Of a stretch of DNA of 64,000 bases, positions 4,001 to 55,706 are shown one piece after another. The position numbers and the translations under genes were made by a program. The stretch covers positions 3,038,001 to 3,102,000 of the forward strand of contig NC_087381.1 of assembly GCF_963675165.1 (NCBI RefSeq). The letters are read 5' to 3'. Under the pieces are notes generated by a model, which saw nothing but the letters and a program-made list of their open reading frames with translations, made no database searches and was not told the DNA's origin. Position 1 is the first letter of the stretch. The number at the start of each line of letters is the position of its first letter. This stretch comes from Halichondria panicea (Eukaryota; Porifera; Demospongiae; Suberitida; Halichondriidae).

Positions 4001-5769
4001 AATGTCGCTTGTTCAGGATTCTTTCCTTTCCAGATTTTCAAGCACTTAATCACGGCTAATTGATTAGTTTTTGCACCTTTGACATCGGTTTGTTCACCAG
4101 GGGTTAATTCCATCACATCGACATAAAAATCAACATCATCAAAATAGGCAGCCAAATAGGGTATGTCTACTTGTTGAATTTGACAGTCGACTTGAGAAGG
4201 ACTGAGTTGATATTTGTCCAATAGCCCTTGAAGAACTGTACTCACTGCAGTTCATTGTAAACATAATTATATAATTATAACAGGTTGTTAAACAGAAAAC
4301 AGCATAGGGCATGATTACTTATACATAACATTTTATATGCACTATTATAGCGACAAACATTAAAGTAACTTGCATACCATACTGAGTTAAACCTAAATTA
4401 AGTAACTCCTTCCAGGTTAGAAGAGGCCCTGATTTCAAACGGTGATCAAGCATTTCACGAAGACAGTTGCTGTCATCATTAGCCTACTGCTTTCTGATAA
4501 TATCTAGTGTGACAATATGAGCTTTCCCAATCTCTGTTCTGAGAGTAGCACAGTTTATGATGAGCTTCGTTTACGGTGTGAGCACTATAATGTATATACC
4601 GTAGTTAAACGTTAACGGGCGTCACCGTCCTCATCGTTGCACGGAAAGAGAATGGGAGCCAAGCCTATAGCTACAGTTTTGTTCTGGCCTGTTACAGAAT
4701 AGCATTATGAATCTCATTATTTTAAGTGGGTGTTAGCCAATAGTAAGTGTGCCTCTCAGTCAATAGCATGTACAAAATTCACACTCGGTAAAGTTAAGTG
4801 GGTGTGTCCATTTGAAATACTGTAATCTGATTGGAGCCGGTGGAATTCCACGGACAGAATAAAACTGTATTGGGTTCCGTCCTCTTTTCGTACAACAGTA
4901 GAGGCGGCGCCGGGTCTAGTTAAATTCCAAACCACCCATATCAAATAACCGCCCATCCCATACTTTTGCCTGATCGTAGAAGCGCGCATGCGTATAATTG
5001 GGTCAAATGTCAACATGATGGAAGATTTTTCATTGATAAATAGCTATATATATCAGAAACGTAAGACTTAAAACTTGCTAGAGACTTATACAACTTTGTT
5101 AAATCTATCTTAGAACAAACAACAATCATTCAACTTAAGATGATCGAGACTATACTTCCAGCTCAGGCCCCTTTCTCTCTTGTGCCAGGGTGTCTTCGAT
5201 CTGTGATCTGCATGTAACTGTACAGAAGATGGAACTGGGTCGTTTTCACAGTACCATAGCTAACTCTCTTGGATGGGCGCTTGCACGGTTCAGTAGCCAC
5301 ATAATCAAATACCTGCCCACCCCTTCTTTAGCCTAAATACATATAGCTATCAGAACAGGTGGGCGGTTCGATGGTTAACTATGGTATAGATCTACATATA
5401 AGAGTACCCCCATGCAGTTATTTGGCACCGACATTAAATCTTACCCATTCGAGGTCCAGGATTGCTCTCAATGTCTCCAGCTAGCAGCAAGAGGTGGGAA
5501 AGAGAGTGGAGCAACACAACAATTGATATCACCAGAAGACCAACGTTCCTTGTATGTTTTAGGAATTTGTTTTTATCTTGAGAGCTCAGAAATGTGAGAA
5601 TATATAATAAAAGCAATCCTCCTTGAACCACTTTCGCAGTAGTACCCACTGTATCACTGAAGTGTAGAGGCTGGTGTTTTGTCGAGGGAGCTTTACTGTG
5701 TGGTCGTGATCCCCTCCCACCACTGAACAGCCCAATGCGAGCTCTCCACAACTCCACAGAGATCCCCAT
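1..5769 (-). CDS. Gene A: 2A-leader / death domain / ankyrin protein (partial, leaves the window at left)
   Basis: Coding exons 5'->3' on the minus strand: 5769-5445, [dead DD2 4572-4378], 4244-3928, 3800-3665, 3599-2600, 2530-2233, 1391-1364, 1262-1117, 1058-429, 292-191, 96-<1. All listed junctions have GT/AG and consistent phases if the dead exon is skipped. The 5' UTR exon ends at 5829 (TAG|GTGAGAAC) and its intron runs to CAG at 5774, four bases before the ATG; an in-frame stop just upstream fixes that ATG. Gene A is the most divergent paralogue. It has an extra Pro/Gln-rich exon (2530-2233) and a helical-domain exon about 90 codons longer than the others. More ankyrin exons should lie left of position 1. 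Cellular role is inferred only from domain content. Confidence 0.75.
1117..1391 (-). CDS. Gene A acidic/Ser linker exons with DSGYST motif
   Basis: Exon 1391-1364 (28 nt) and exon 1262-1117 (146 nt), phases 0-1 and 1-0. They encode a D/N/S-rich run (DTDSDNDNNQS) and SSHSDSGYST, just before the ankyrin repeats. The second exon is 48 nt shorter than in B, C, E and F. Confidence 0.7.
1561..2150. mobile_element. Non-autonomous TIR element, ATGCCTCGGT...ACCGAGGCAT family (long form)
   Basis: Inverted ends ATGCCTCGGT and ACCGAGGCATA enclose about 590 bp in the gene A intron before the linker exons. A close copy is at 45300-45839 in gene E. Both end in a (CA)n-rich stretch followed by CTACCGTATACCTCGCTT. 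No coding capacity; the open frames across it are incidental. Confidence 0.65.
2233..2530 (-). CDS. Gene A Pro/Gln-rich linker exon (unique to A)
   Basis: 298 nt, acceptor TTCTCAG|GC, donor GATGAG|GTAACA. Low-complexity Pro, Gln and Glu residues with no domain. B-F lack it; their exon 5 leaves in phase 0 and joins the next exon directly. Confidence 0.65.
2600..3599 (-). CDS. Gene A helical-domain exon with N-terminal CPYC cysteine motif
   Basis: 1000 nt. After a Ser/Asp-rich start it encodes VCPYCKEC and later GCPKK, a Cys cluster that could bind zinc, then FPYLDVAGLDDEYVKYLEEK and a long helical region. The C-terminal two-thirds (YISFLNYQIIELLIQHSG, YLDDFKTFCQRSVFEVP, HIFPLSPSQQLALSEIGARL) is clearly the distant counterpart of exon 5 in genes B-F. 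I know of no named family for it. The donor AAAAG|GTATAC joins the next exon in phase 2, giving ...ENKR-QDED. Confidence 0.75.
3665..3800 (-). CDS. Gene A linker exon 4
   Basis: 136 nt, phase 0 to 1, acceptor CATGCAG|GAACG, donor GAAG|GTGAGT. Ser/Thr/Asn-rich and presumably disordered; the core SLPTQSS(S)IQE is shared with B-D. Confidence 0.7.
3928..4244 (-). CDS. Gene A death-domain exon (DD3)
   Basis: 317 nt, entered in phase 1 and left in phase 0 (TTAAAA|GTGAGT). It encodes a death-fold: LDKYQLSPSQVD, an acidic FDDVDFYVDVMELTPGEQTDVKG core, then CLKIWKGKNPEQATF and LLEMLVKLRKEEIADQICQYL. The Trp near the middle and the C-terminal amphipathic helix are typical of DDs in animal apoptosis and NF-kB adaptors. 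Partners are unknown. Confidence 0.8.
4378..4572 (-). pseudogene. Gene A dead DD2 exon
   Basis: Aligns with the DD2 exons of B-F (CLREMLDH and LTWKELLN regions are readable). It has lost bases around the WFEIGQAL helix, has an in-frame TAG where the others encode Tyr in the KRYAND region, and has no recognisable acceptor. The old donor CAGTATG|GTATGC survives. Functional DD2 exons are phase 1-1, so exon 1 can be spliced straight to the next exon in frame. Confidence 0.8.
4573..5444 (-). other. Gene A intron 1, no feature recognised
   Basis: The intron is enlarged because the DD2 exon is dead. It holds no second DD exon. Open frames at 4756-5016 have no family signature or paralogue support. 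Confidence 0.5.
5445..5769 (-). CDS. Gene A exon 1: two hydrophobic segments plus 2A skipping motif
   Basis: 108 codons plus one base. A basic N-terminus (LWRARIGLFSGGRGSRPHSK) is followed by a first hydrophobic stretch around residues 47-62 and a second around 76-97, then D-I-E-S-N-P-G-P at residues 99-106. The exon ends two codons after the final Pro (R-M), at G|GTAAGA, phase 1. Peptide release between Gly105 and Pro106 is the known behaviour of D[VI]ExNPGP sequences; here it is predicted. Confidence 0.85.
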
Positions 5770-21300: not shown

Positions 21301-23130
21301 TTTTTTAAGGAAAAACTCTGAGCTCCACAGGAAGCAGGAGCACCTTCCTAGTTCAAGCTACCTTGTTTTAGCTGCTCTAAGTTGGTGCCATACTCAGAGA
21401 ACATGAAATAACAGTTGACGTGCTTTAATTTTGGAAAAAATATACTAGAGAGGTATAGTGCTATTACTATAAATAAATGCAGACAGAATAGCTGAAGCAC
21501 TCCTGTTTTAATCAGCTGTCTCATATAATTGGTTCCGTCTCATAATACCTTCTTATACAATAATGATATATATACAATAATGATAGCTAGTGTATAATTA
21601 TGTGTAACTCTATATTAAAAGAACTTTAACTCAGCGGCATGTGAGAAACAAAATCTCGTTCTTAATACTAAACTGACCTTCAGGTGAGTTAGATGCTCCT
21701 TGAATACTAGACTGTGTTGGAAGTGAGGTGATGATATCCTCCCGTGTCAAAGAAGGAGTGGTGGTGTCATTAGGCAACGTAAACCATGAGTTATGGTTAA
21801 GCATTACTGAAGCACCGGTATATAATTATAATTATTGTTATAGAGTGTACACACAAACTCACTTTTAAGTACTGACAGATTTGATCGGCAATCTCTTCCT
21901 TCCTTAACTTTACCAACATCTCCAGAAGGGTCAAGAATGTCGCTCGTGCAGGATTCTTTCCTTTCCAGAGTTTCAAGCACTGGATCACGGCTAATTGATT
22001 AGCTTCTGCACCTTTGACATCGGTTTGTTCCCCAGGGGTTAATTCCATCACATCGACATAGAAACCAACATTATCAAAAAAGGCAGCCAAATATGGTATG
22101 TGCGTTTGTTGAATTTGACAGTCGACTTGAGAAGGACTGAGTTGATATTTGTCCAATAGCACTTGAAGAACTGTACTCACTGGTTGAGCAGATGATCCTA
22201 ATGACAGATATGCTATAACAATTGAACAGTAATTAATATCAAATAGCACCATGCAATAATGTACAAAACGTCGATATAGAGATCCTCCTGTCTAATAATT
22301 GCTTTCCCAAAATTGTGTGATATTGAAGCAGTTTTTGGATAATTATAACAGCATGAGTGTAGGGCAATACATAAAATTGTACGCACTGACAACAAACGCA
22401 AATGCAAGGAATCGTACGTTAAATTAATAAGTATCTTGCATACCATACTGAGTATTAAGTAACTCCTTCCAGGTTAGAGGAGGCACTGATTTCAAACGGT
22501 GATCAAGCATTTCACGAAGACAGGTGCTGCCATCATTAGCATACCGCTTTCTGATGCTATCTAGTATGACATCCTCAACATGTAGAGCTTGTCCAATCTC
22601 GAACCATTTGTTCCGAGAGTCGTACAGTTTAGTGTGAGCTTCGTTTAAATCATCCATTTTTAGTGCGTCATCTGTATATATAATACAAAAAACTGACCGG
22701 CACTATAATTATATGTACATACCGCGGTACATGTAGCTATACTGTATAAGAGTACCCCCATGCATGCATGTAGTTAATTGGCGCCAACATTAAAGCTATA
22801 ATTACCCATTTGAGGCCCAGGATTGCTCTCAACGTCTCCAGCTAACAGCAAGAGGTGGGCAAGAGAGTGGAGCAACACAGCAATCAGTATCACCAGAAGA
22901 CCAACGTTCCTTGTACGTTTTAGGAATTTGCTTTTATCCTGAGAGCTCAGAAATGTGAGAATATACAATAAAAGCAATCCTCCTTGAACCACTTTCGCAG
23001 TAGTACCCACTGTATCACTAAAGTGTAGAGGCTGGTGTTTTATCGAGGGAGCTTTACTGTGTGGTCGCGATCCCCTCCCACCACTGAACAGCCCAATGCG
23101 AGCTCTCCACAACTCCACAGAGATCCCCAT
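6294..23130 (-). CDS. Gene B: 2A-leader / death domain / ankyrin protein, longest copy
   Basis: Coding exons: 23130-22806, 22671-22444, 22197-21863, [exon 4 ends 21678, acceptor damaged], 16040-15316, 15203-15176, 15029-14836, 14768-14142, 11448-11347, 11252-11154, 10864-10766, 10494-10294, 10219-10022, 8406-8209, 8155-7958, 7528-7331, 7064-6858, 6658-6461, 6398-6294. Apart from exon 4, every junction is GT-AG and phases agree. The size (16.8 kb) comes from transposon load in introns 4, 9 and 14 and from two extra two-repeat ankyrin exons (7528-7331, 7064-6858) that C-E lack. An in-frame ATG lies 12 codons upstream at 23166, but MGISVE is conserved in all copies. Confidence 0.75.
6461..8406 (-). 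CDS. Gene B ankyrin exons 15-19
   Basis: Exons 8406-8209, 8155-7958, 7528-7331 (198 nt each), 7064-6858 (207) and 6658-6461 (198), two repeats each, all phase 0. Repeat cores include TTLMMSARDGHLKIVKLLI, TALMAAAHFGHPTVVDLLI and WSPLLIASQNGHLAIVKLLV. Compared with C, D and E, exons 7528-7331 and 7064-6858 are additional; the first resembles the last exon (GERWSPL start), suggesting internal exon duplication. Confidence 0.85.
7738..7772. repeat. Perfect 15-bp-arm hairpin in gene B intron
   Basis: GTAATTGCACGTCGT, five-base loop, ACGACGTGCAATTAC. A second hairpin (ATAGTATGGCTA...TAGCCATACTAT) lies nearby at about 7602-7634. Likely the core of a small palindromic element. Confidence 0.6.
8407..10021. 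other. Gene B intron 14 with ATGCCTC element (8589-9380)
   Basis: In C the same intron is about 225 bp. The insertion includes a degraded copy of the GTGTCTATGGGATTTAGAAG repeat (8420-8520) and the element 8589-9380 with ends ATGCCTCTCGCC / CGAGGCAT. 9381-9990 has no recognisable gene. The 8577-8850 part recurs inverted at 42835-43110. Confidence 0.6.
10022..11448 (-). CDS. Gene B ankyrin exons 10-14
   Basis: Exons 11448-11347 (102 nt), 11252-11154 (99), 10864-10766 (99), 10494-10294 (201) and 10219-10022 (198), all phase 0. Each 99-nt exon is one 33-residue repeat and each ~200-nt exon is two. Readable cores: ALHIAAGQGYLECVQILLQK, FTPLMVACLEGHARVVELLI, STPLMLAAGRGRSKCVDVLI. The 10940-11141 MITE lies between the second and third exons. 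Confidence 0.85.
11632..12992. mobile_element. Large foldback element in gene B intron 9
   Basis: Left arm 11632-12094 (from GAGTAAACAATGGAACTTCG to GATTGGAAACGGAAGT) is the inverse of right arm 12536-12990, with scattered mismatches and short indels; the unique loop is about 440 bp. Open frames on opposite strands at 11555-11842 and 12831-13061 are mirror images of each other, so they are not genes. Confidence 0.8.
13440..14125. repeat. Duplicated intronic block next to exon 9 (B, E, F)
   Basis: The stretch from CTACAAGTTTCC through the CTCGGGTAATGATGAC just before the exon-9 donor is almost identical to 51878-52560 beside gene F exon 9, and partly to 47440-47950 in E. It contains CCGAGGCCGCTTACGCGCCTCGG-type hairpin ends and GTGCTAACCCTCGGCTG. 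It marks recent duplication or gene conversion among these copies. Confidence 0.65.
14142..14768 (-). CDS. Gene B ankyrin exon 9
   Basis: 627 nt in phase 0 with acceptor CTGCAG and donor GACGAG|GTTAGT. About five ankyrin repeats: GQFLLHVAAAYGHLNIVRYF, ETPLHFAALNGHLHIVKYLV, CSPLHNACRSGNVDVVKYLM, ITPIHFAAATGSPNLIRFLL. Confidence 0.85.
14836..15203 (-). CDS. Gene B acidic/Ser linker exons with DSGYNT motif
   Basis: Exons 15203-15176 (28 nt) and 15029-14836 (194 nt). DADSDNDDNQSAQPSVELDD is followed by KSSHSDSGYNTVSSK. Likely unstructured; possible phosphorylation region upstream of the ankyrin block. Confidence 0.75.
15316..16040 (-). CDS. Gene B exon 5: unclassified helical domain
   Basis: 725 nt, phase 1 to 0, acceptor TTCTCAG, donor GTACAG|GTAAAT. 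The product has an N-terminal helix (WELDSLEMDKKFSNLVMKLR), a conserved CLMDVSCY, then GYFSYFSYGLIEHLTDHLG, YVKEFKEYAERR and a C-terminal FEVPSFIPPDIFPLTPNQEA. No named family is recognised; high conservation across all six units and against divergent A indicates a real domain. Confidence 0.8.
16090..16355. mobile_element. ATGCCTCGGT...ACCGAGGCAT element, short form, 50 bp upstream of exon 5
   Basis: About 266 bp between inverted ends ATGCCTCGGTG and GTACCGAGGCATA. The copy at 39561-39826 sits at the same 50-bp distance upstream of gene D exon 5, with nearly identical flanks: one insertion copied by duplication. Confidence 0.7.
17530..18016. mobile_element. CAGAGGAGG-TIR element with 9-bp target duplication (MULE-like)
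   Basis: Begins CAGAGGAGGTTGGAC and ends GTCCAACCTCCTCTG. Flanking direct repeats GGTCGTTGT occur at 17521-17529 and 18017-18025. The TIR matches more loosely further in (ACACGCATCATC / GATGACGCGCGT). A 9-bp TSD is typical of Mutator-like elements. No transposase frame is visible. Same termini and TSD length as the element at 30712. Confidence 0.8.
18065..18948. mobile_element. piggyBac-like non-autonomous element in TTAA
   Basis: TTAA at 18065-18068 is followed by CCCTTTCCCCATTG; the far end reads ACAGGGAAAGGG followed by TTAA at 18945-18948. A subterminal palindrome GCCGTCATATGACGGC lies just inside the left end. TTAA duplication with CCCTTT-type ends is the piggyBac signature. The ~880 bp interior shows no transposase. 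Confidence 0.75.
19363..20455. mobile_element. ATGCCTC...GAGGCAT element with nested insertion
   Basis: Nearly collinear with 8589-9380. Ends are ATGCCTCTCGCCATG and CTACGCCTCGAGGCATAA. Compared with the other copy it carries an extra block of about 320 bp from 19617 to 19940, inserted after ATTGTTATCTATAT and bounded by TTAGACACTG...AGTGTCTAA inverted ends. Confidence 0.6.
20549..20946. mobile_element. MITE with AAGGGCGTATGAAGAGAAG inverted ends
   Basis: Left end CAAGGGCGTATGAAGAGAAG and right end CTTCTCTTCATACGCCCTTG are inverted over about 30 bp. Related ends occur at 10940-11141, 25819-26036, 45840-46032 and, one end only, near 36611. Confidence 0.65.
21678..21780 (-). pseudogene. Gene B exon 4 with mutated acceptor
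   Basis: In C and D exon 4 begins after a good acceptor (CTTTGACAG|GAGGATATC and CTTTGACACAG|GAGGATATC). In B the same place reads GACACGG|GAGG, so AG has become GG. The reading frame (EDIITSLPTQSSIQGASNSPEG) and donor GAAG|GTCAGT are kept. Either another acceptor further upstream is used or the exon is skipped, which would break frame between exon 3 (phase 0) and exon 5 (phase 1). Confidence 0.6.
21863..22671 (-). CDS. Gene B death-domain exons DD2 and DD3
   Basis: Exon 22671-22444 (228 nt, phase 1-1) encodes a short death fold: DLNEAHTKLYDSRNKWFEIG, CLREMLDHRLKS, LTWKELLN. Exon 22197-21863 (335 nt, phase 1-0) encodes the complete DD3 with MELTPGEQTDVKG, CLKLWKGKNPARATF and LLEMLVKLRKEEIADQICQYL. 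DD2 lacks the last helices of a full DD and may be a half-domain. Confidence 0.85.
22806..23130 (-). CDS. Gene B exon 1: hydrophobic leader plus 2A motif
   Basis: 325 nt, same length as in A, C, E and F. Ends with LLLLAGDVESNPGP-Q-M and donor G|GTAATT, a weaker donor than the GTAAG of the others. Two hydrophobic segments precede the 2A, as in the other copies. Confidence 0.85.
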
Positions 23131-23653: not shown

Positions 23654-23758
23654 CTAGTTCCTGTTGAACAGCACACTAGCTACTTGGTATACCAATAGCA
23701 TCTGGTATATAAGAAAGTGACCACACCTTTTTGCTGTGTCCATTGCTGTTATTCCCAT
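23654..23758 (-). CDS. Gene C C-terminal tail exon
   Basis: 105 nt with stop. MGITAMDTAKRCGHF, then LIYQMLLVYQVASVLFNRN. Differs from gene B at two residues (R for L, N for K). Confidence 0.8.
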   Translation of the reverse strand: MGITAMDTAKRCGHFLIYQMLLVYQVASVLFNRN

Positions 23759-26700
23759 CTGCATAAAATTATGATAAAAGAGATGGTCTATAATTGTTGA
23801 AGTGAAGCATTTACCTTATCCGTAACTTTTGGATCCGCTCCATTTTTGAGGAGAACACTGACAATCTCTGTTTGCCCTGTGGCAACTGCTAAGTGTAAAG
23901 CTGTTACTCCTTGTGGTCTATTTTGGGCATTGACGTCAGCTTGGGCAGCAACCAGTAGTTTCACTATAGCGAGATGACCAAGTTGTGACGCTATCATTAG
24001 AGGGCTCGCTCTCTCCTGTACATGCACATGACATTGCACCATTGAACCATCAATCGATTGAATAATTATACGTGCATGTATGTATACACCAATGACCAAA
24101 CTTTCTACCAGTTTTTGTGTCAACATTAAAAATCTACACGTACACATTGCACGTTGTATATAAATTCAGTGAAAGCTAACTTTGATGTAAAAATTTAAAC
24201 CGTTACTTTTATACCTTGTCAGCTATATTGGCGTCAGCTCCACTCTTGAGGAGTACACGGACACACTCCGTACGACCTCCAGTTGTGGCATGATATAGAG
24301 CCGTAGATCCATTCAGTGTTTGAGCATCAAGTGGAGCTTTTGCATCAATGAATAAAGCAACCACAGTGGGGTGACCAAAGTGAGCCGCTGCCATGAGAGC
24401 AGTGCCTCCAGTCTGCACAACACAAGCACAAGCAGACAATCAGTATATGTAATTATAATTAAGTGTCTTACTTCATCCTTTAGTTTGGGATTGGCTCCAT
24501 TGTTTAGGAGAACACTGACGCACTCCGTCTGACCACCAATGGCAGCCAAATGGAGAGCTGTTCCATTTTTGACACCTCGTGCATTGACATGAACCTTTGC
24601 AGCAATTAACAGTTCCATAATCTTGACATGACCATCTCGAGCAGACATCATAAGAGTAGTGAACCCAATCTATATAATTACACAGCAAAAACACTTGTTA
24701 TAGGAGATGCATCATCGTATTTTAGTGTTAAAATACAGAAATGTATGTCATTAAATTTCAAAAGATGCGTTTTATTTAACATGTTTTATGTTACTATAAC
24801 GAATATGTTTTACTGTGTATAATTATACAGTGCCAGAATAGTTAAACAATCATGATTCATCACTTAATTGTAACATGTTCACAGTCTTACAACCTTGTCT
24901 GTTGAATTTGGGGATGCTCCATTCTTGAGGAGAACACTAACACACTCTGATTGTCCTTTGAAAGCAGCCGTGTGGAGAGCTGTATGGCCAGACTGAGTGC
25001 GAGCTTCGATCTGAGCCTTGGCAGAGATAAGTTGTATCATAACTTCAGGATGACCTTCTTGAGCAGCGATTATTAGAGCTGTGAATCCACGCTGTACAAA
25101 AATGATAAATTAATACAACTTACAAATGTAACAGGAGAGTTTTAATATGTAAAAAAGACTTACAATAGTATTTGCATTGACCCGAGCCCCATTCCTTATG
25201 AGAACATCGACACATTTTGATCGTCCTTTACTAGCAGCCAGCATAAGAGGCGTTGAATCTTCTTTTAGAGAATGGCCTTCAATGTCAGCTTTAGCAGCAA
25301 TCAGTAGCTCTACAACTCCAGCATGGCCCATAAGACAAGCAACCATAAGAGGAGTTAACTGCACACAAACAATTATGTTGATAGATAATTATTGTACTCT
25401 ACTTGGACCTTTGCATCATGCATGGCACACTCTCTATGCAGAGTGAGGCCCATGGTTTTTCAGCTGTTTATACTCAATGTGAAGGGAAGTACAGGACACG
25501 TATTATGATAGGCTTTCAATTATATGCACATGGTAAAAAAGATGGGTCAAGTCGACACCCCTTATAGTTAATTTTAAGAGATGTTGAACTTTTATTTGGC
25601 GATCATTATTGCTAAGCTCACCGTATTTGACAGATGAACACTTGCTCCAGCAGAGATCAACAGATTAACAATGTCTTCGGCCCCGTTTCTACTAGCCAAC
25701 CAGAGAGGAGTCAATTTCTCCTACATAATTAGACAACTATATATACATTTTGACTTGCTTTCAAGTGATGACAAATCCTAAGACTTACAGAATCTACAAA
25801 GCAGTAGACACTAAAATATAATCAAGGGCGTATAAAAAGAGAGAGGGCAAGCAACTGACTATCAACCCTATACGTGCGAGCAAAAACCAAAGCCACAGAC
25901 TGGATATATTATACTATGACATTGTGCTGTACACAAAAATCTAGATATTACTGTTACAGTAGCTTTACACTGCCCCCTTCGGTTTTTGCTCGCAAGCTGT
26001 TGCATGCACGCCCTCTCTGATTTTATACGCTCTTTATATAATTACTCACAAAGCTTTGAACATCTGGATTGGCCCCTTTTTGAAGAAGAATTTGCACACA
26101 CTCCAAGTTTCCTAGTCCGGCTGCAACGTGTAGTGCTGTGAAATCGTCCTGGTGTGGTATAAAATGTGATTGTTATGATCTACAAAAACTGCTCATGCAT
26201 GTACATGTATGATGTACCTTCATCAACGAGTCAACTTGTATGCCAGGTTCTTTCAATAACAGCTTTAGCGCTTCAGTGTGGCCATATATTGCAGCATTCT
26301 GAAAAGGCAACCTCCCTTTCTGCACAAAGTAGCAGACAACGTTGTACATGTACATAACAATTATTATAGCAAAAAGGCCGCATGTAGCTAGCTGTAAGTT
26401 CAAGCTTCTTAGCACTTTTATTTGACAATTAACCCGCATAATTTTTAAGGTACTAAATTTTCGCGAATTTCTCAAACAAATTTTACAATACCCCTGAAGT
26501 AAACCAATTTTCGAGGTCAATCCTCGAAAACCTCGAAAATAACTTGTGCTGTAAACGCAGCGCTATGGCATCCAGGTGACAAACAAACAAACCAACGAAT
26601 ACTCGTGCCAGGCCACGTGCCTTGGGTAATGATGACTAACCTTGTCTTTGCTTTGCAGGTCACATTCAGCTATCATTTGAAAGGAAAGTTTAAGCTCCTT

Positions 26701-29700
26701 CAGCAGAAATTGAATCAAATCCAGGTTACCAGATTCAGCAGCAAAATGGATAGGTGCATTTCCATCGATGGCCTTCTCATTCACATCGAGTAGTTCGTGT
26801 TGTTGAATCTCAGACATCAAGTACTTTACTACATCGATGTTCCCACTTCTGCAGGCATTGTGTAGTGGAGAGCAATGATTGTTGTCCACACTCGTGGGAT
26901 CGACCAGTTGACTGCCGACAAGGTACGTAACAATATGTAGATGTCCATTGAGCGCGGCAAAATGAAGTGGCGTTTCTTTGTTCGTGGATTCAGTTGCCGG
27001 ATTGAATTTTCTGTCTTCAATAAAGTACCTAACAATATTGAGATGTCCATAAGCTGCTGCAGTGTGAAGTAGAAATTGACCTTGCTCAACAGAATTGTTG
27101 CAGTATAGAACTTCAATCAGGAACCGAACTTGGGTTATTTCTCCATTAAATACGGCTGAATGAAGCTTGATTGGTGGTGGTACTTCATTCCATTTGGCAT
27201 GAAGGTGTATGTATGCTGGGAAGGAGTTAATGCCTGACAGCAAACTTGTCGCACGTAAAGCTATGTCGTTCAACTGCAGGAGAAAAATAATTATGATCGA
27301 CAAACATGGTGGCTGGCTGTAGGGTAAAATACCTGTGGATCTGCGTCGAGGTCAATTTCAAATTCGGTATGTACTGTCGATGAGGTTTGGCTAGGTAGAC
27401 AATTGGATAACACAGTATTATATCCAGAATCAGAATGAGAACTCTTTGATTTCACAGCTATTGACTCATTGTCAAGTTCCACAGATGGCTGAGCACTTTG
27501 ATTGTCATCGTTGTCCGAGTCAGCATCTGAGAGTACGAGAACAGAACCCGTGCAGCTAGATTATAGTGCATGCATGTACACTCCATCAAGCACCTAGTAT
27601 ATATGTATATCTGTCAATGCTTCAAAAAAGTGTACGTAAAACTTACCACTATCTGTACTGTGAGAATTGTCATCCTAATTAAAAAAGAAAGACAGTAAGT
27701 ACACCATACGATTGCACACACATGCATGCATCAATGATAACATTACATCACTGATCATATCCAGCTTTACATCTTAATGGTAAAATAGAGAAACTTATAA
27801 TTATATACCTGTAGTTGGAAATGATAGTCCCCGCAGTCCAATTGGATTACCCCAAGATCTCTTATTTCTGCTTCTTGATTGGGTGTGAGTGGGAAGATGT
27901 CGGGAGGAATAAAAGAGGGTACCTCAAACACAAGTTGAACGCAGCCTTCATTAATTCCACGAAGTAATAACGCATTTGCTTCGACTTTGAGTATTTTTGC
28001 TAGATTTTCTTCAAATTGTTTCAAGTAGAGAAGCTCACATTTGTCGTAAGTAGAGTCGAGCTTCACGATCATCTTAGTGCTATCTTCTCTGTAGCCCGAA
28101 CCAAACTTTTTCGGGTACTGAATCCTTCGTTTAGCATATTTTTCAAATTCTTTCACATAAGCTATTAAGTTATCCTGGTCCTCCTTACTTCCAAGATGGT
28201 CAGTGAGATATTTAATCAAGCCATACGAAAAATATGAAACGTAGTCTCGGATAATATCCCATACATCGTAGAAATCGCTAGCTGCACGTAATTCTTCTCG
28301 CTTGTCTCGAAACAAACACTGGTTAGGGCCTTTAAATACTTTCTGGTAGCAGCTCACATCCATTAAACAAGACGTCAGCTTCTTCAAAACAATTTGAGTT
28401 TCCAAAGACTGCTGAAGTTGGAGCACAAACTTTGAGAAAGCTTTATCCATTTCTAGCGAGTCTAGTTCCCACTTGGCAGAGGAGGGTGTTTCTTGGGTAT
28501 AACGTCTTGAAACACTGGAATCTGAGAATAGGGTACAAGAGTGAGACATCTAAATGTTTCTGACCCCCCAGTCTTGCAGTAATCTTGAGGGAGCTACGTA
28601 AATGCCTGTTCACTAACTACTATGGTCAATAGGTTTTGCATGCAAGCAAAAAAAAGTTGTGACAGCGCTTTGTTTGCAGCTAATGCTAGCATTTAGTGTT
28701 CAAGAGACAGGGGGTATTATGAGACAGGGGGGGGACAGGGGGATATTATGAGACAGGGGGGTATTATGAGACAGGGGGATATTATGAGACAGGGGGGTAT
28801 TATGAGACAGGGGGGGCATTATGAGACAGGGGGATATTATGAGACAGGGGGGCATTATGAGACGGGGGTATTATGAGACACCATTGCAATTAACGCTAAT
28901 TGGCTACTCTAACATATCTGATACTAAAATAATTATAGTGATTATTCTGTCCTATAAAAACTGTTACTCCTGTTTTAACAGGTAGTTAATTTTACTACAA
29001 AACATAATTGATTCCGTCTTATAATACCTTCTTATACCCTACATGTATATATACAATAATTACGGTGATTGATAGTGTATAATGTGTAACTCTATATTAA
29101 AAGAACTTCAACTCAGCGGCATGTGAGAAACAAAATCTCGATCTCAATACTAGACTGACCTTCAGGTGAGTTAGATGCTCCTTGAATACTAGACTGTGTT
29201 GGAAGTGAGGTGATGATATCCTCCTGTCAAAGAAGGAGTGGTGGTGTCATTAGGCAACGTAAACCATGAGGTAAGGCTAAGCATCACTGAAGCACCGGTA
29301 TAATTGTTATAGAGTGTACACACAAGGTCACCTTCAAGTACTGACAGATTTGATCGGCAATCTCTTCCTTCCTTAACTTTACCAACATCTCCAGAAGGGT
29401 CATGAATGTCACTTGTTCAGGATTCTTTCCTTTCCAGAGTTTCAAGCACTTAATCATGGATAATTGATTAGCTTCTGCACCTTTGACATCGGTTTGTTCA
29501 CCAGGGGTTAATTCCATCACATCGACATAGAAACCAACATTATCAAAAAAGGCAGCCAAATATGGTATGTGCGTTTGTTGAATTTGACAGTCGACTTGAG
29601 AAGGACTGAGTTGATATTTGTCCAATAGCACTTGAAGAACTGTACTCACTGGTTGAGCAGATGATCCTAATGACAGATATGCTATAACAATTGAATAGAA

Positions 29701-30605
29701 ATTAATATCATTACACCAAATAGCACCATGCAATAAATAATGTACAAAACGTCGATAGAGATCCTCCTGTCTAATAATTATTTTCCCAAAATTGTGTGAT
29801 ATTGAAGCAGTTTTTGGATAATTATAACAGCATGAGTGTAGGGCAATACATAAAATTGTACGCACTGACAACAAACGCAAATGCAAGGAATTGTACGCAT
29901 TAAATTAACAAGTATCTTGCATACCATACTGAGTATTAAGTAACTCCTTCCAGGTTAGAGGAGGCCCTGATTTCAAACAGTGATCAAGCATTTCACGAAG
30001 ACAGGTGCTGTCATCATTAGCATATCGCTTTCTGATGCTATCTAGTATGACATCATCAACATGTAGAGCTTGTCCAATCTCAAACCATCTGTTCCGAGAG
30101 TCGTACAGTTTAGTGTGAGCTTCGTTTAAATCATCCACTGTTAGTGTGTCATCTGTATATATAATACAAACAACTGGCCGGCACTATAATTATATGTACA
30201 TACCGGTACATGTATACTTTTTTTAGCTACTGTATAAGAGCACCCCTGTGCAGTTAATTGGCACCAACATTAAAGCTTACCCATTCGAGGCCCAGGATTG
30301 CTCTCAACGTCTCCAGCTAACAGCAAGAGGTGGGAAAGAGAGTGGAGTAACACAGCAATCAGTATCACCAGAAGACCAACGTTCCTTGTACGTTTTAGGA
30401 ATTTGCTTTTATCCTGAGAGCTCAGAAATGTGAGAATATACAATAAAAGCAATCCTCCTTGAACCACTTTTGCAGTAGTACCCACTGTATCACTAAAGTG
30501 TAGAGGCTGGTGTTTTGTCAAGGGAGCTTTACTGTGTGGTCGCGATCCCCTCCCACCACTGAACAGTCCAATGCGAGCTCTCCACAACTCCACAGTGATC
30601 CCCAT
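23654..30605 (-). CDS. Gene C: intact 2A-leader / DD2-DD3 / helical domain / ankyrin protein
   Basis: The cleanest copy. Exons: 30605-30281, 30152-29925, 29666-29332, 29223-29160, 28521-27809, 27674-27647, 27526-27333, 27273-26641, 26319-26218, 26148-26050, 25720-25622, 25358-25164, 25091-24894, 24669-24472, 24412-24215, 24015-23815, 23758-23654. Lengths sum to 3915 nt, i.e. 1304 codons plus stop, with all splice sites GT-AG and no internal stop seen. A 5' UTR exon ends at 30671 (TATAG|GTGAGT) and its intron ends at CAG 30610. With 2A skipping, a 105-residue membrane leader and a ~1199-residue DD/ankyrin protein starting with Pro are predicted. Function in cell-death or immune signalling is inferred from the domains. 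Confidence 0.85.
23815..26319 (-). CDS. Gene C ankyrin exons 10-17
   Basis: Eight phase-0 exons: 26319-26218, 26148-26050, 25720-25622, 25358-25164, 25091-24894, 24669-24472, 24412-24215, 24015-23815. Lengths 102, 99, 99, 195, 198, 198, 198, 201 nt give one or two 33-residue ankyrin repeats per exon, about 13 in total. The MITE 25819-26036 lies between the second and third. Confidence 0.85.
25819..26036. mobile_element. MITE, AAGGGCGTATAAAAAGAG family, in ankyrin intron
   Basis: TCAAGGGCGTATAAAAAGAG at the left and CTCTGATTTTATACGCTCTT at the right. Counterparts in the same intron of B (10940-11141) and E (45840-46032) show that it predates those duplications; D has lost it or been replaced there. 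Confidence 0.65.
26641..27273 (-). CDS. Gene C ankyrin exon 9
   Basis: 633 nt, phase 0. Repeat cores FLLHTAAAYGHLNIVRYFIE, ETPLHFAALNGHLHIVTYLV, CSPLHNACRSGNIDVVKYLM, NAPIHFAAESGNLDLIQFLL. Donor GACAAG|GTTAGT. Confidence 0.85.
27333..27674 (-). CDS. Gene C acidic/Ser linker exons with DSGYNT motif
   Basis: Exons 27674-27647 and 27526-27333. DDNSHSTDS is followed by DADSDNDDNQSAQPSVELDN and SSHSDSGYNTVLSN. Confidence 0.75.
27809..28521 (-). CDS. Gene C exon 5: unclassified helical domain
   Basis: 713 nt (238 codons with the phase base). Same motifs as gene B: CLMDVSCYQKVF, YVSYFSYGLIKYLTDHLG, YVKEFEKYAKRRIQYP, then FEVPSFIPPDIFPLTPNQEA. No CPYC cluster. Donor CTACAG|GTATAT. Confidence 0.8.
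28685..28885. repeat. Minisatellite, unit about 17-19 bp (GAGACAGGGGGNATTAT)
   Basis: About ten tandem, slightly varied copies of ATTATGAGACAGGGGG in gene C intron 4. The same place in gene D (about 40008-40050) has two copies, and E keeps a trace near 49868. Strongly G-rich on the plus strand, so quadruplex-prone. Confidence 0.85.
29160..29223 (-). CDS. Gene C linker exon 4
   Basis: 64 nt, phase 0-1, acceptor CTTCTTTGACAG, donor GAAG|GTCAGT. Encodes EDIITSLPTQSSIQGASNSP: a short Ser/Thr linker. Confidence 0.7.
29332..30152 (-). CDS. Gene C death-domain exons DD2 and DD3
   Basis: DD2 30152-29925 (228 nt, phase 1-1): TLTVDDLNEAHTKLYDSRNR, WFEIGQALHVDDVILDSI, CLREMLDHCLKS, LTWKELLN. DD3 29666-29332 (335 nt, phase 1-0): STVLQVLLDKYQLSPSQVD, MELTPGEQTDVKGAE, CLKLWKGKNPEQVTF, LLEMLVKLRKEEIADQICQY. 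The first residue of DD2 (D) is built from the last base of the 2A exon. Confidence 0.85.
30281..30605 (-). CDS. Gene C exon 1: hydrophobic leader plus 2A motif
   Basis: Residues about 47-62 (VVQGGLLLLYILTFLSS) and 76-97 (VGLLVILIAVLLHSLSHLLL) are hydrophobic, separated by a short basic linker (SKFLKRTRN). The 2A motif D99-V-E-S-N-P-G-P106 follows immediately, then R-M and donor G|GTAAGC. The second helix supplies the hydrophobic/helical stretch that 2A peptides need in the ribosome exit tunnel. Confidence 0.9.
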
Positions 30606-39826: not shown

Positions 39827-40164
39827 ATGAAGACGTGTCAAAGCTACGTAACATAAAGCTACTAGCTAATAACGAGCTGCGCTGTGCTAATGCCTCTGCT
39901 GCGAATGGCATTGTCACAACTTTTTTTAGTCAATAGGTTTTGCATGCAAGCAAAAAAAAGTTGTGACAATGCTATTAGCAGCTAATGCTAGCATTTAGTG
40001 TTCAAGAGACAGGGGGTATTATGAGACAGGGGGGGTATTATGAGACACCATTGCAATTAACGCTAATTGGCTACTCTAACATATCTGATACTAAAATAAT
40101 TATAGTGATTATTCTGCCTATAAAAACTGCTACTCCTGTCAGATACCTATACTGGTAGTTAATT

Positions 40165-42202: not shown

Positions 42203-42522
42203 CCATTCGAGGCCCAGGATTGCTCTCAATGTCTCCAGCTAACAGCAAGAGGTGGGAAAGAGAGTGGAGCAACACAGCAATTGATACCACAAGAAGACCA
42301 ACGTTCACGTTTTAGGAATTCAGTTTTATCTTGAGAGCTCAGAAATGTGAGAATATACAATAAAAGCAATCCTCCTTGAACCACTTTCACAGTAGTACCC
42401 ACTGTATCACTGAAGTGTAGAGGCTGGTGTTTTGTCGAGGGAGCTTTACTGTGTGGTCGCGATCCCCTCCCACCACTGAACAGCCCAATGCGAGCTCTCC
42501 ACAACTCCACAGAGATCCCCAT
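42203..42522 (-). pseudogene. Gene D exon 1 with 5-bp deletion upstream of the 2A
   Basis: Length 320 instead of 325 nt. Where the others read ACGTTCCTTGTACGTTTTAG on the plus strand, D reads ACGTTCACGTTTTAG (about 42301-42315). The frame changes around residue 72 and stops soon after. The codons for D-I-E-S-N-P-G-P are still present but in a frame without an upstream ATG. Confidence 0.85.
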
Positions 42523-49131: not shown

Positions 49132-49852
49132 CTGTACTCGGAAATGATAGTCTCTGCAGTCCAATTGGATTACCCTAAGATCTCTTATTTCTGCTTCTTG
49201 ATTGGGTGTGAGTGGGAAGATGTTGGGAGGAATGAAAGAGGGTACCTCGAACACAAGTTGAACGCAGCCTTCATTAATTTCACGAAGTATTAACATTTTT
49301 ACATCAACTTCAAGTATTTTTGCTAGATTTTCTTCAAATTGTTTCAAGTAGAGAAGCTCACATTTGTCGTAAGTAGAGTCGAGCTTCACGATCATCTTAG
49401 TGCTATCTTCTCTGTAGCCCGAACCAAACTTTGTCGGGTACTGAATCCTTCGTTTAGCATATTTTTCAAATTCTTTCACATAAGCTATTAAGTTATCCTG
49501 GTCCTCTTTACTTCCAAGATGGTCAGTGAGATATTTAATCAAGCCATACGAAAAATATGAAACGTAGTCTCGCATAATATCCCATACATCGTAGAAATCG
49601 CTAGCTGCACGTAATTCATCTCGCTTGTCTCGAAATAAACACTGGTTAGGGCCTTTAAATACTTTCTGGTAGCAGCTCACATCCATTAAACAAGACGTCA
49701 ACTTCAGAATTTCTTCAAAACAATTCGAGTTTCCAAAGACTGCTGAAGTTGGAGCACCAACTTTGAGAAAGCTTTATCCATTTCTAGTGAGTCTAGCTCC
49801 CACTTGGCAGAGGAGGGTGTTTCTTGGGTATAACGTCTTGAAACACTGGATT
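49132..49852 (-). pseudogene. Gene E exon 5 with 8-bp insertion
   Basis: 721 nt against 713 in C. The plus strand reads CAACTTCAGAATTTCTTCAAAAC where C has CAGCTTCTTCAAAAC. The frame before it (WELDSLEMDKAFSKLVLQLQ) and after it (CLMDVSCYQKVF to FPLTPNQEA) are separately open. Confidence 0.8.
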
Positions 49853-50565: not shown

Positions 50566-51133
50566 CCGTATTAAGTAACTCCTTCCAGGTTAGAGGAGGC
50601 CCTGATTTCAAACGGTGAGCAAGCATTTCACGAAGACAGGTGCTGTCATCATTAGCACACTGCTTTCTGATGCTATCTAGTGTGACATCATCAACATGTA
50701 GAGCTTGTCCAATCTCAAACCATCTATTCCGAGAGTCGTACAGTTTAGTGTGAGCTTGGTTTAAATCGTTAAGTGTCAGTGTCTCATCTGTATAATACAA
50801 AACAGGGCTGTTATTCGAGCACTGCGAGTAAGTAATTTAAGTAAATACCTGACACGACAAATCCCTCAATTTCATCGGCCACGTCGCTGCGTCCTATTGT
50901 GACATGTCTAAGACTCCTACACAGATCTCCCCAAGTCAGTGAATTATCTGTTGCCTTGATACAATGAGCCAACATTTCTCGGAGACAGTCACCATGGTCA
51001 CTTGACTGCTTCTGAATAGCAGTAAGAGTGTCGTGATCGACTTTGAGAGTTAGCCCAATATTGAACCATTTTGTACGAGCCTTGAACAGCTTGCTGCAAG
51101 CGTCCTTTAGATGGCCAAGAGTCAGAACTTCAT
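50566..51133 (-). CDS. Gene E death-domain exons DD1 and DD2
   Basis: DD1 51133-50849 (285 nt, phase 1-1): HLKDACSKLFKARTKWFNIG, LKVDHDTLTAIQKQSSDHGD, CLREMLAHCIKA, LTWGDLCRSLRHVTIGRSDV, ADEIEGFVV, a complete DD. DD2 50787-50566 (222 nt, phase 1-1), six bases shorter than in C. DD1 occurs only in E and F. Confidence 0.85.
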
Positions 51134-51215
51134 CTGTAAGTAAGATAGGAAATTCAGTTTCCAGGTCCAAACCCACCTTAAAATCTTCACGATTATAATT
51201 CATACTAAATCTTAC

Positions 51216-51540
51216 CCATTTGAGGCCCAGGATTGCTCTCAATGTCTCCAGCTAACGCCAAGAGGTGGGCAAGAGAGTGGAGCAACACAACAATCGATAT
51301 CACCAGGAGACCAACATTCCTTGTATTTTTTAGGAATTTATTTTTATCTTGAGAGCTCAGAAATGTGAGAATATATAATAAAAGCAATCCTCCTTGAACC
51401 ACTTTCGCAGTAGTACCCACTGTATCACTGAAGTGTAGAGGCTGCTGTTTTGTCGAGGGAGCTTTACTGTGTGGTCGCGATCCCTTCCCACCACTGAATA
51501 GCCCAATGCGAGCTCTCCACAACTCCACAGAGATCCCCAT
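51216..51540 (-). CDS. Gene E exon 1: hydrophobic leader plus 2A motif
   Basis: 325 nt, intact. Ends HLLALAGDIESNPGP-Q-M, donor G|GTAAGA. An in-frame extension of 23 codons upstream to 51609 exists, but the conserved start is MGISVE. Confidence 0.85.
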
Positions 51541-52575: not shown

Positions 52576-55500
52576 CTCGTCTTTGCTTTGTAAGTCACAC
52601 TCAGCCACTTGAAAAGAAAGTTTAAGCTCCTTCAGCAAAAATCGTATTAAATTTGGGCTACCAGTTGCAGCAGCAAAATGGATAGGTGTAATTCCATCGA
52701 TGGCCTTCTCATTTACATCGAGTAGTTGGTGCTGTTGAATCTCAGACATCAAGTACTTTACTACATCGACGTTCCCACTTCTGCAGGCATTGTGTAGTGG
52801 AGAGCAATTATTGTTGTCCAGACTTGTGGGATCTACCAGCTGAATGCCGACAAGGTACTTAACGATATGCAGATGTCCATTGAGCGCAGCAAAATGAAGT
52901 GGTGTTTCTTTGTTTGTGGATTCAGTTGCCGCATTGAGTTTCCAGTCTTCAATGAAGTACCTAACAATATTGAGATGTCCATAAGCTGCAGCAACGTGAA
53001 GTAGAAAATGACCTTGCTCAACAGAGTTGCAGTGTAGAACTTCAATCAGGAACCGAACTTGGATTATTTCTCCATTGAATACGGCTGAATGAAGCTTGAT
53101 TGGTGGTACTTCATTCCATTTGGCATGAAGCTGTATGTATGCTGGGAAGGTAATGCCTGATAGCAAACTTCTCAAACGCGTAGCTATATAGTTCAACTGC
53201 AGAAGAAAAACATAATTATGATCGACAAACATGGGTAGGTAAATATACCTCTGGGTCTGCGTCGAGGTCAATTTCAAATTCGGCATGTACTGTTGATGAG
53301 GTTTTGCTAGGTGGATGTTTTGATGACACAGTGCTATATCCAGAATCAGAATGAGAACTCTTTGATTTCGCAGCTATTGACTCATCATCGAGTTCCAGAG
53401 ATGGCTGAGTGCTTTGATTGTCATCGTTGTCCGAGTCAGCATCTGAGAGTACAAGAACAGAAACCGTACAGCTGATTATATTCATGCCCAACAAGCAGCT
53501 ATAGTATTAGCCTCGATCCCAGGCCGAGTTTTCGCTTTTATAACGGTTAGGTGAACAACTAGTTGTTCGCCTAACCGTTATAAAAGCGAAAACTCGGCAA
53601 CCGTTATAAAAGCGAAAACTCGGCCTGGGATCGAGGCTACTATAGTATATAAAATTAAGGTATATCTGTCAATGTGACAAGAAATGTATGTAAAACTTAC
53701 CACTATCTGAACTGTGAGAATTGGCATCCTAATTAAAAAAGAAAGACAGTAAGTACATGACTGATGTACATCATAAATATCGGTGATTGCACACAGTCAC
53801 ATGCATCAATGATAACATTACAGCACTGACAATATCCAGCTTTACATCTGAATGGTACATACCTGTACTTGGAAATGATAGTCCCCGCAGTCCAATTGGA
53901 TCACCCCAAGATCCTTTAGTTCTGCTTCTTGATTGGGTGTGAGTGGGAAGATGTCAAGAGGAATGAAAGAGGGTACCTCGAACATAAGTTGAACACAACC
54001 CTTGTTAATTTCGCGAAGAAACAAAACTTTCATATCAACTTTGAGAGTTTTAGAGATTTTTTTTTGAAATTTTCTCAAGTGTTCAATCTCACATTTGTCA
54101 TAAGTAGAGTCGAGCTTCACAATCATCTCAGTACTATCATTCCCGGAACCAGAACTAAACTTAGTCGGAAACTGAATCCTTCGTTTCGCATATTCTTTGA
54201 AATCTTTCACATACGCTATGAAGTTGTCCTTGTCTTCTTTGTTTCCAAGATTATCAGTGAGATACTTGATCAAATCATACGAAAAATAGGAAACATAGTC
54301 TCGAATAATACGCCATACAGCATGGATATTGCTTGCTGCTTCTAAATCTTGTCGTTTGTCCTTGAAAAAACACTGTTTTTCACCTTTGAACACTGGAGTG
54401 TAGCAACTCAGGTTCATTAAGCAAGACTTTAAATCCTCTAAATCAATTCTCTTGAAAGATTTTTGAAGGTTTGTCTGCAAACTTCCAAACTTGTCATCCA
54501 TTTCTTGTGAGTCTATCAGCCACTCAGAAGAGAGTGTTTCCTGGGTACAGCCTCCTGGTACACTAAATTCTGTAAATAATAAAGAAATGAGTGACCGTGT
54601 GAAGCTTAATGATCTAAGAAGTGTGTAGAAAGATAATTATAGGTGCCACGTGCGACGTACGTTAATTATGATCTATGAGGAAAATTGGAAAGGAGCTTTC
54701 CGCTAAATTCAGTTGGGTCAGATGTTCTTGCATACACACATGTACAATTATTGAACCTAAATTAAGTAATTCCTTCCAGGATAGAGGAGGCCCTGATTTT
54801 AAACGGTGAGCAAGCATTTCACGAAGACAGGTGCTGTCATCATTAGCACACTGCTTTCTGGTGCTATCTAGTGTGACATCATCAACATGTAGAGCTTGTC
54901 CAATCTCAAACCATCTGTTCCGAGAGTCGTATAGTTTAGTGTGAGCTTCTTTTAAATCACCAAGTGTCAGCGTCTCGTCTGTATAATACAGCTGTTAGTG
55001 AGCACGTTATTATAAGTATTTACCTGACACGACAAATCCCTCAATTTCATCAGCCACGTCGCTGCGTCCTATTGTGACATGTCTAAGACTGTTGCACAAA
55101 TCTCCCCAAGTCAGTGAATCTGTTGCCTTGATACAATGAGCCAACATTTCTCGGAGACAGTCACCATGGTCACCAGACTGCTTCTGACTAATAGCAGTAA
55201 GAGTGTCGTGATCGACTTTGAGAGTTAGCCCAATATTGAACCATTCTGTACGAGCCTTGAACAGCTTGCTGCAAGCGTTCTTCAAATGGCCATGGAGAGT
55301 CAGAACTTCATCTGTAAACAAGATAGGAAATTCAGTTTCCAGGAACGAAATCCACCTCTTCACAATTATACTAAATCTTACCCATTCGAGGCCCAGGATT
55401 GCTCTCAACATCTCCAGCTAGCAGCAATAGGTGGGTAAGAGAGTGGAGCAACACAGCAATGGCAATCCCCAGGACACCAGCATTCCTTGTATGTTTTAGT

Positions 55501-55706
55501 AAACGTGATTTATCTTGAGAGCTCAAAAACTTAAGAATATACAATAAAAGCAATCCTCCTTGAATCACTTTCGCAGTAGTACCCACTGTATCACTAAAGT
55601 GTAGAGGCTGGAGTTTTGTCGAGGGAGCTTTACTGTGTGGTCGTGATCCCCTCCCACCACTGAACAGCCCAATGCGAGCTCTCCACAACTCCACGGTGAT
55701 CCCCAT
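52432..55706 (-). CDS. Gene F: 2A / DD1-DD2 / helical domain / short ankyrin protein, 3'-truncated
   Basis: Exons: 55706-55382, 55311-55024, 54978-54757, 54569-53863, 53728-53701, 53442-53249, 53196-52576. All phases agree. No exon 10 or later is found before the gap, so reading continues past the exon-9 donor into intron sequence to a stop at 52432, giving about 842 residues. DD3 and exon 4 are missing as in E. The gene may be truly short, or its 3' exons may lie in the unassembled gap. Confidence 0.7.
52576..53728 (-). CDS. Gene F linker exons 7-8 (DSGYST) and ankyrin exon 9
   Basis: 53728-53701, 53442-53249, 53196-52576 (621 nt). SSHSDSGYSTVSSK; ankyrin cores FLLHVAAAYGHLNIVRYFIE, ETPLHFAALNGHLHIVKYLV, ITPIHFAAATGSPNLIRFLL. 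The intron between the first two contains the palindromic element 53508-53639. Confidence 0.8.
53508..53639. mobile_element. Palindromic TAGCCTCGATCCC element with 9-bp TSD
   Basis: Begins TAGCCTCGATCCCAGGCCGA and ends TCGGCCTGGGATCGAGGCTA. Flanked by CTATAGTAT at 53499-53507 and 53640-53648. The central GAGTTTTCGCTTTTATAACG arm is present twice on the right side. Smaller TAGCCTCGAT hairpins occur at 58252-58304 and 61320-61415, and half of one at 60369. Confidence 0.85.
53863..54569 (-). CDS. Gene F exon 5: unclassified helical domain
   Basis: 707 nt, phase 1-0. More diverged than B-E (CLMNLSCYTPVFKGEKQCFF, YVSYFSYDLIKYLTDNLG, YVKDFKEYAKRRIQFP). Its start EFSVPGGCTQETLSS is closer to gene A than to B-E. 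Confidence 0.8.
54757..55311 (-). CDS. Gene F death-domain exons DD1 and DD2
   Basis: DD1 55311-55024 (288 nt) and DD2 54978-54757 (222 nt), both phase 1-1. DD1 ends ADEIEGFVVSG|GTAAAT. The DD2 donor TTTAG|GTTCAA is weak; in gene A the same place continues to a better donor. Confidence 0.8.
55382..55706 (-). CDS. Gene F exon 1: hydrophobic leader plus 2A motif
   Basis: 325 nt, intact. LTHLLLLAGDVESNPGP-R-M, donor G|GTAAGA. Somewhat diverged in the middle (SSQDKSRLLKHTRNAGVLGI), but hydrophobicity and the 2A core are unchanged. The 5' UTR donor is near 55888 (GAG|GTGAGAAC). Confidence 0.85.

Follow-up and report, generated by a model that had tools for sequence, protein, structure and literature searches.

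Leader exons ending in a 2A motif precede death-fold genes in several gene families of the sponge Halichondria panicea

The window, by which we mean the whole 64-kb stretch of DNA analysed, contains six tandem Halichondria panicea genes on the minus strand, each with a leader exon at its 5' end. In five of the six leaders (5445, 22806, 30281, 51216 and 55382), a single open frame was found to run from M1 to the 2A core, D[VI]ESNPGP, at residues 99-106. The preliminary description had placed this core in frame in six exons; all six stretches exist, but the one at 42203-42522 is frameshifted. NPGP was absent from the six-frame translation of the window outside the six leader exons. The features located were as follows.

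30281..30605, minus strand: gene 3 leader exon, from ATG to NPGP-R-M with a phase 1 end; the same variant occurs in NCBI model P0001
29926..30153, minus strand: gene 3 first death-type domain (DD2 type), from tblastn with P0001 domains and the splice junction
29344..29664, minus strand: gene 3 second death-type domain (DD3 type), from tblastn with P0001 domains and Pfam Death
27809..28498, minus strand: gene 3 helical and TRADD-N-like domain, from tblastn with P0001 domains; PF20694 match sub-threshold
23657..27267, minus strand: gene 3 ankyrin-repeat exons, outer bounds of matches, from tblastn; Pfam Ank in P0001
5445..5769, minus strand: gene 1 leader exon, open frame; partial first death domain at 4379-4534
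22806..23130, minus strand: gene 2 leader exon, open frame, spliced to death domain 22445-22672
42203..42522, minus strand: gene 4 leader exon, frameshift between ATG and 2A
51216..51540, minus strand: gene 5 leader exon, open frame, spliced to death domain 50862-51134
55382..55706, minus strand: gene 6 leader exon, open frame, spliced to death domain 55037-55312

In genes 2-6, the leader exon and its intron meet at ATG-G/GTAA, the next exon is preceded by AG, the phase is 1, and the intervening introns are 70-134 nt long. The spliced junction reads NPGP-[RQ]-M-D-[DNE] in frame, in gene 4 with respect to the 2A frame only. The splice phase was consistent in all five genes with a complete first death-domain exon (genes 2-6); in gene 1 the first death domain is represented by its C-terminal part only. 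The gene 4 leader is 5 nt shorter than the others (320 nt compared to 325 nt), so that its ATG frame, which encodes residues 1-74, differs from the frame of the 2A, and no Met was found upstream of the 2A within the latter frame. In gene 5, the reading frame shifts within the helical/TRADD-N-like exon. The frame and domain checks thus indicate that the gene 4 leader is broken and that genes 1 and 5 are damaged farther downstream. Genes 2, 3 and 6 were fault-free in the parts examined, namely the leader, the death domains and the TRADD-N-like exon.

The gene 5 exon matches two frames at 49704-49710, a probable frameshift. In gene 3, a G-rich 18-bp tandem repeat (28734-28880) separates the death-domain from the TRADD-N-like exons, and gene 4 has a similar 19-bp repeat at 40006-40047. 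A plus-strand ORF at 61812-62126 looks by eye like an ESCRT-III CHMP2-type protein and is presumably an ordinary neighbour gene. An Rfam scan of the window gave no matches.

The NCBI H. panicea protein P0001 (1302 aa), annotated 'tankyrase-1-like isoform X5', contains the leader, death-type domains, a TRADD-N-like domain and ankyrins, in that order. It was 98% identical over the 200 residues searched, and its leader variant was unique to the copy at 30281 among 18 compared. The isoform names hint at RNA-seq backing of P0001. A second protein, P0002 (C10, 627 aa), has the order leader, death-type domains, ankyrins. The 2A core was present in 12 of the 15 NCBI proteins examined, at residues 99-201, and absent from P0013-P0015; ten of the 15, from eight gene names, belong to the C14 cluster. 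The earlier proposal, in which splicing links the 2A in frame with death domains and ankyrins, is supported by P0001 and by the splice phase of genes 2-6, with the exceptions of the partial first death domain of gene 1, the frameshifted leader of gene 4 and the frame change in gene 5.

Pfam and tblastn placed death-like domains at the N-terminal and ankyrins at the C-terminal part of the window bodies. The DD3-type domain scored 23.8 bits against Pfam Death (cut-off 22.6, joined query). The bodies probably carry a TRADD-N domain after the death domains, as judged from sequence: PF20694 matched four of eight paralogues, all sub-threshold (best E 0.0052). Matches in the PDB were to designed repeat proteins only and were judged spurious, and a further PDB search gave no match. 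No relatives beyond H. panicea were found at E<=0.001 in protein searches.

The genome-wide search for D[VI]ExNPGP that the preliminary description had proposed was run on the H. panicea genome (131,455,214 bases, 39 contigs) and returned 97 matches, and 19 more with a GTG valine, compared to 0 in reversed-pattern controls; the 116 motifs are thus above chance. Leaders accounted for 85 of the 97, distributed over types A (the window type, 19), B (6), C (2), D (4), E (45) and F (9), where types A, B, E and F were assigned by protein searches and types C and D and the retrotransposon class by hand. The remaining 12 were non-LTR-like (8) or other (4); two of the eight retrotransposon-like motifs were tested (PHD and endonuclease), four were read only, and two were assigned by an identical motif string. 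The 19 GTG-valine motifs comprised 11 in an array on C2, of which 2 were read, five upstream of type B-like death domains, and three that were unread. At C7:4954444, the 2A stands before a stretch named CARD-like by eye, for which Pfam gave no match. Altogether, about 102 of the 116 motifs were leader-like, eight retrotransposon-like and six in neither class. The earlier description, which dealt with the six-gene array, was too narrow for the whole: the array is one among several gene families with 2A leaders in the H. panicea genome.

The region C14:0.50-1.63 Mb (L069, L074, L075) holds a large type E array of 2A leaders preceding death domains, and the NCBI models derived from this array terminate in NACHT, Roc-like, dynamin-like or ZU5-like domains. 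The C2 motifs form a second array at 7.74-7.84 Mb (L083, L084); in the two copies read, a type E-like leader is followed by a stretch that resembles a CARD by eye, and L084 has ankyrin ORFs farther on. In L062, L079 and L080 the 2A core lies within long unclassified ORFs; L079 had no Pfam match, and L080 had matches of coiled-coil type, all sub-threshold.

Since Pfam profiles are weak on such divergent domains, a specific death-domain query was used against the genome, with the best 150 matches listed and the 1.5 kb of same-strand sequence upstream of each inspected. A 2A was found there in 44 of the 50 best matches, 12 of the next 25, one of the next 25 and one of the last 50, and in none of the 150 was it downstream or on the opposite strand. 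The concentration at the top-ranked matches ties the leader to one death-domain branch, and its occurrence in just two of the 75 lowest-ranked matches listed shows that the device is not general. Conversely, at least 57 of the 116 motifs have a death-domain match, among the best 150 listed, within 1.5 kb downstream on the same strand. At the 60 loci examined, a death-fold match lay downstream of 32 of 39 distinct 2A sites, a test that is partly circular because the queries were drawn from the same genes; the other seven sites were mostly retrotransposon-like. With Pfam, Death was found near the 97 motifs nine times downstream and six times upstream within 6 kb, and six times and once, respectively, within 3 kb; the corresponding numbers for NACHT were 13 and 0. 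The maxima in 2000 rounds of shifted controls were 6 and 7.

What follows the death domains differs among leader types. Single NCBI models of type E contain the leader, death domains and then varied back ends: NACHT in P0003, a Roc-like GTPase below the Pfam cut-off in P0004 and P0012, a dynamin-like GTPase over the Pfam cut-off in P0011, and a ZU5-like domain, recognised by eye with no Pfam match, in P0008. Further associations on the same strand are by proximity, a single gene being not proven in any of them: NACHT downstream of types C and D, a Roc GTPase about 3.5 kb downstream of a type F leader, and, in the C2 array, a domain that looks CARD-like by eye and has ankyrins after it. All CARD-like domains (types C, C2 and C7) were named by eye, with no Pfam match.

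The leaders themselves are conserved. Among 17 unbroken type A leaders (136 pairs), mean dN was 0.072 and mean dS 0.200, a ratio of 0.36; gene conversion may have occurred among type A copies. The core residues D, E, S, N, P, G and P were invariant across the 17 copies, with synonymous codon changes at the core D, G and P (one misaligned row of 17 left out). The exact motif was absent from three of 22 type A leader matches, all three of them decayed with stops, and was retained in two broken leaders, the fourth copy of the window and C13:4030740, which has one stop. We take the type A 2A tail to be closely similar to well-used viral 2A tails. A second motif, W[RS][AV][RS]IGL, had 29 of its 31 genome matches within type A, B and D leaders, compared to two matches for the reversed control, and the type C leader has a variant of it. 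Hydropathy analysis bore out the hydrophobic stretch that had been described directly before the 2A, at residues 79-97 in type A, and types A, B and D all have a strong hydrophobic stretch immediately upstream of the 2A. Type C has three such stretches and most type E models at least three (P0011 has one); in type F leaders none was above threshold.

We consider it likely that the intact genes make a hydrophobic leader of ~106 residues by 2A skipping, together with a soluble body of immune type and a minor fusion. One ORF per gene would encode a hydrophobic leader ending in 2A and then a cytosolic adaptor or sensor with death domains, a TRADD-N-like domain and ankyrins. Most ribosomes would omit the Gly-Pro bond and continue translating, so that the leader would be set free with NPG at its end and the soluble protein would begin with Pro-[Arg/Gln]-Met-Asp, and a minority read-through fusion would retain the leader, which would direct it to secretory membranes. 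Sequence, splice phase, a model joining leader and body, leader conservation and the genome-wide placement before death-fold domains are the observations behind this reading, from which we infer skipping and its efficiency, the location of the products and an immune function.

It is rather unlikely that the leader is instead a plain signal anchor with a weak or inactive 2A, the receptors being mostly membrane-bound. The hydrophobic stretches of types A-E would suit such an anchor, as would the membrane-bound NLRs proposed in Dysidea and Amphimedon in the accessible part of PMC12909245; however, an inactive 2A needs no invariant D, E, S, N, P, G and P across 17 copies, and the same core recurs in several leader types preceding different genes. 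Initiation of the body at the Met directly after NPGP-[RQ], with the 2A incidental, is very improbable. It would give a nearly identical body protein, and Met108 is invariant in the 17 type A leaders, but a Met is lacking at this place from most of type B and from every type C, D, E or F leader that was read, and Met initiation therefore fails as a general explanation. An origin of the leaders as relics of non-LTR retrotransposons with a 2A, landed by chance upstream of death-domain genes, as the ORFs in this genome in which a 2A core is followed by PHD and endonuclease domains might suggest, is hardly credible and was set aside as the entire explanation, since death domains follow the window leaders spliced in phase and W[RS][AV][RS]IGL is confined to leaders in nearly all its matches, and the frame and core of the leaders are conserved. 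The 2A itself may be of distant retrotransposon origin.

Beyond the preferred reading of skipped leaders and soluble bodies, we tentatively suggest that the skip-off 2A membrane leader could be a portable domesticated cassette, in which at least two seemingly unrelated lineages (WRARIG; PSWQ/SWTG) were joined to death-fold domains whose back ends are of ankyrin, NACHT-LRR, Roc-type or dynamin-like kind. The efficiency of skipping, which translational stress may set, might then partition the sensor between cytosol and membrane, and the 'membrane-bound NLRs' of sponges might largely be skipped-off leaders.

No paper on 2A leaders of sponge immune genes was found among the matches listed, in a search outside which most subscription papers and all preprints lay. 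As far as the accessible parts of the sources go, just two papers among the matches listed mention 2A on host immune genes, namely PMC4981915 and PMC11512398, the latter through a citation for NLRs; '2A-like' was absent from the accessible text of the Dysidea NLR paper (PMC12909245) and the H. panicea immunity paper (PMC8242945), and what was available of PMC5009743 combines StopGo with a secretion signal, not in sponges. The architecture had been called undescribed. Its parts are known from the portions available of PMC4981915 (2A with DEATH) and PMC8195603 (death-like domains, TRADD-N and ankyrins), and the combination is new with respect to these. The finding is real, with parts anticipated and the combination and extent new, and what is new is the genome-wide use of 2A leaders before death-fold genes in H. 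panicea. If true, it extends a host-gene recoding device of sea urchin NLRs to a sponge, to several immune-type architectures and to ~100 places in a single genome. The proposal of membrane-bound NLRs in sponges becomes directly testable and warrants a recheck, and automatic annotation ('tankyrase-1-like') can mask a gene making two proteins.

Three known systems resemble the window genes in part. Non-LTR retrotransposons, which occur in the H. panicea genome too, have the same core near the ORF N-terminus; in their ORFs PHD and endonuclease domains follow the 2A (L041, L045), whereas in the window the 2A leads into host-type death domains of spliced genes, not into PHD, endonuclease or reverse transcriptase. 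In the part of PMC8195603 available, 357 Amphimedon TRADD-N proteins are described, mostly with TRADD-N preceded by one to three death-like domains and with ankyrins among the commonest C-termini. Those of the NCOA6 clade share with the window genes the death-like domains, a variable C-terminus that is often ankyrins and, probably, the TRADD-N; in contrast, that part of the paper has no mention of a 2A leader, and the window TRADD-N match is sub-threshold. The window leaders also resemble the N-termini of the NLRs of Strongylocentrotus purpuratus, which, in the portions available of Roulston 2016 (PMC4981915), have an N-terminal 2A and then DEATH; their 26-aa 2A gave about 80% skipping in vitro, and with skipping blocked the protein entered the secretory path. 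Both systems have an N-terminal 2A core in innate immune proteins, a hydrophobic 2A region and DEATH next. The sea urchin element is 26 aa on DEATH-NACHT-LRR genes, as far as that source was accessible, whereas the window leader is 106 aa long, has an N-terminal motif of its own and belongs to death-domain/ankyrin genes that had ankyrins and no NACHT and LRR downstream by tblastn and Pfam; the H. panicea leaders on other architectures are longer or shorter than those of the window. By analogy with the behaviour of the sea urchin 2A-NLRs, the window genes would be expected to yield the leader as a peptide and the body as a protein of the cytosol.
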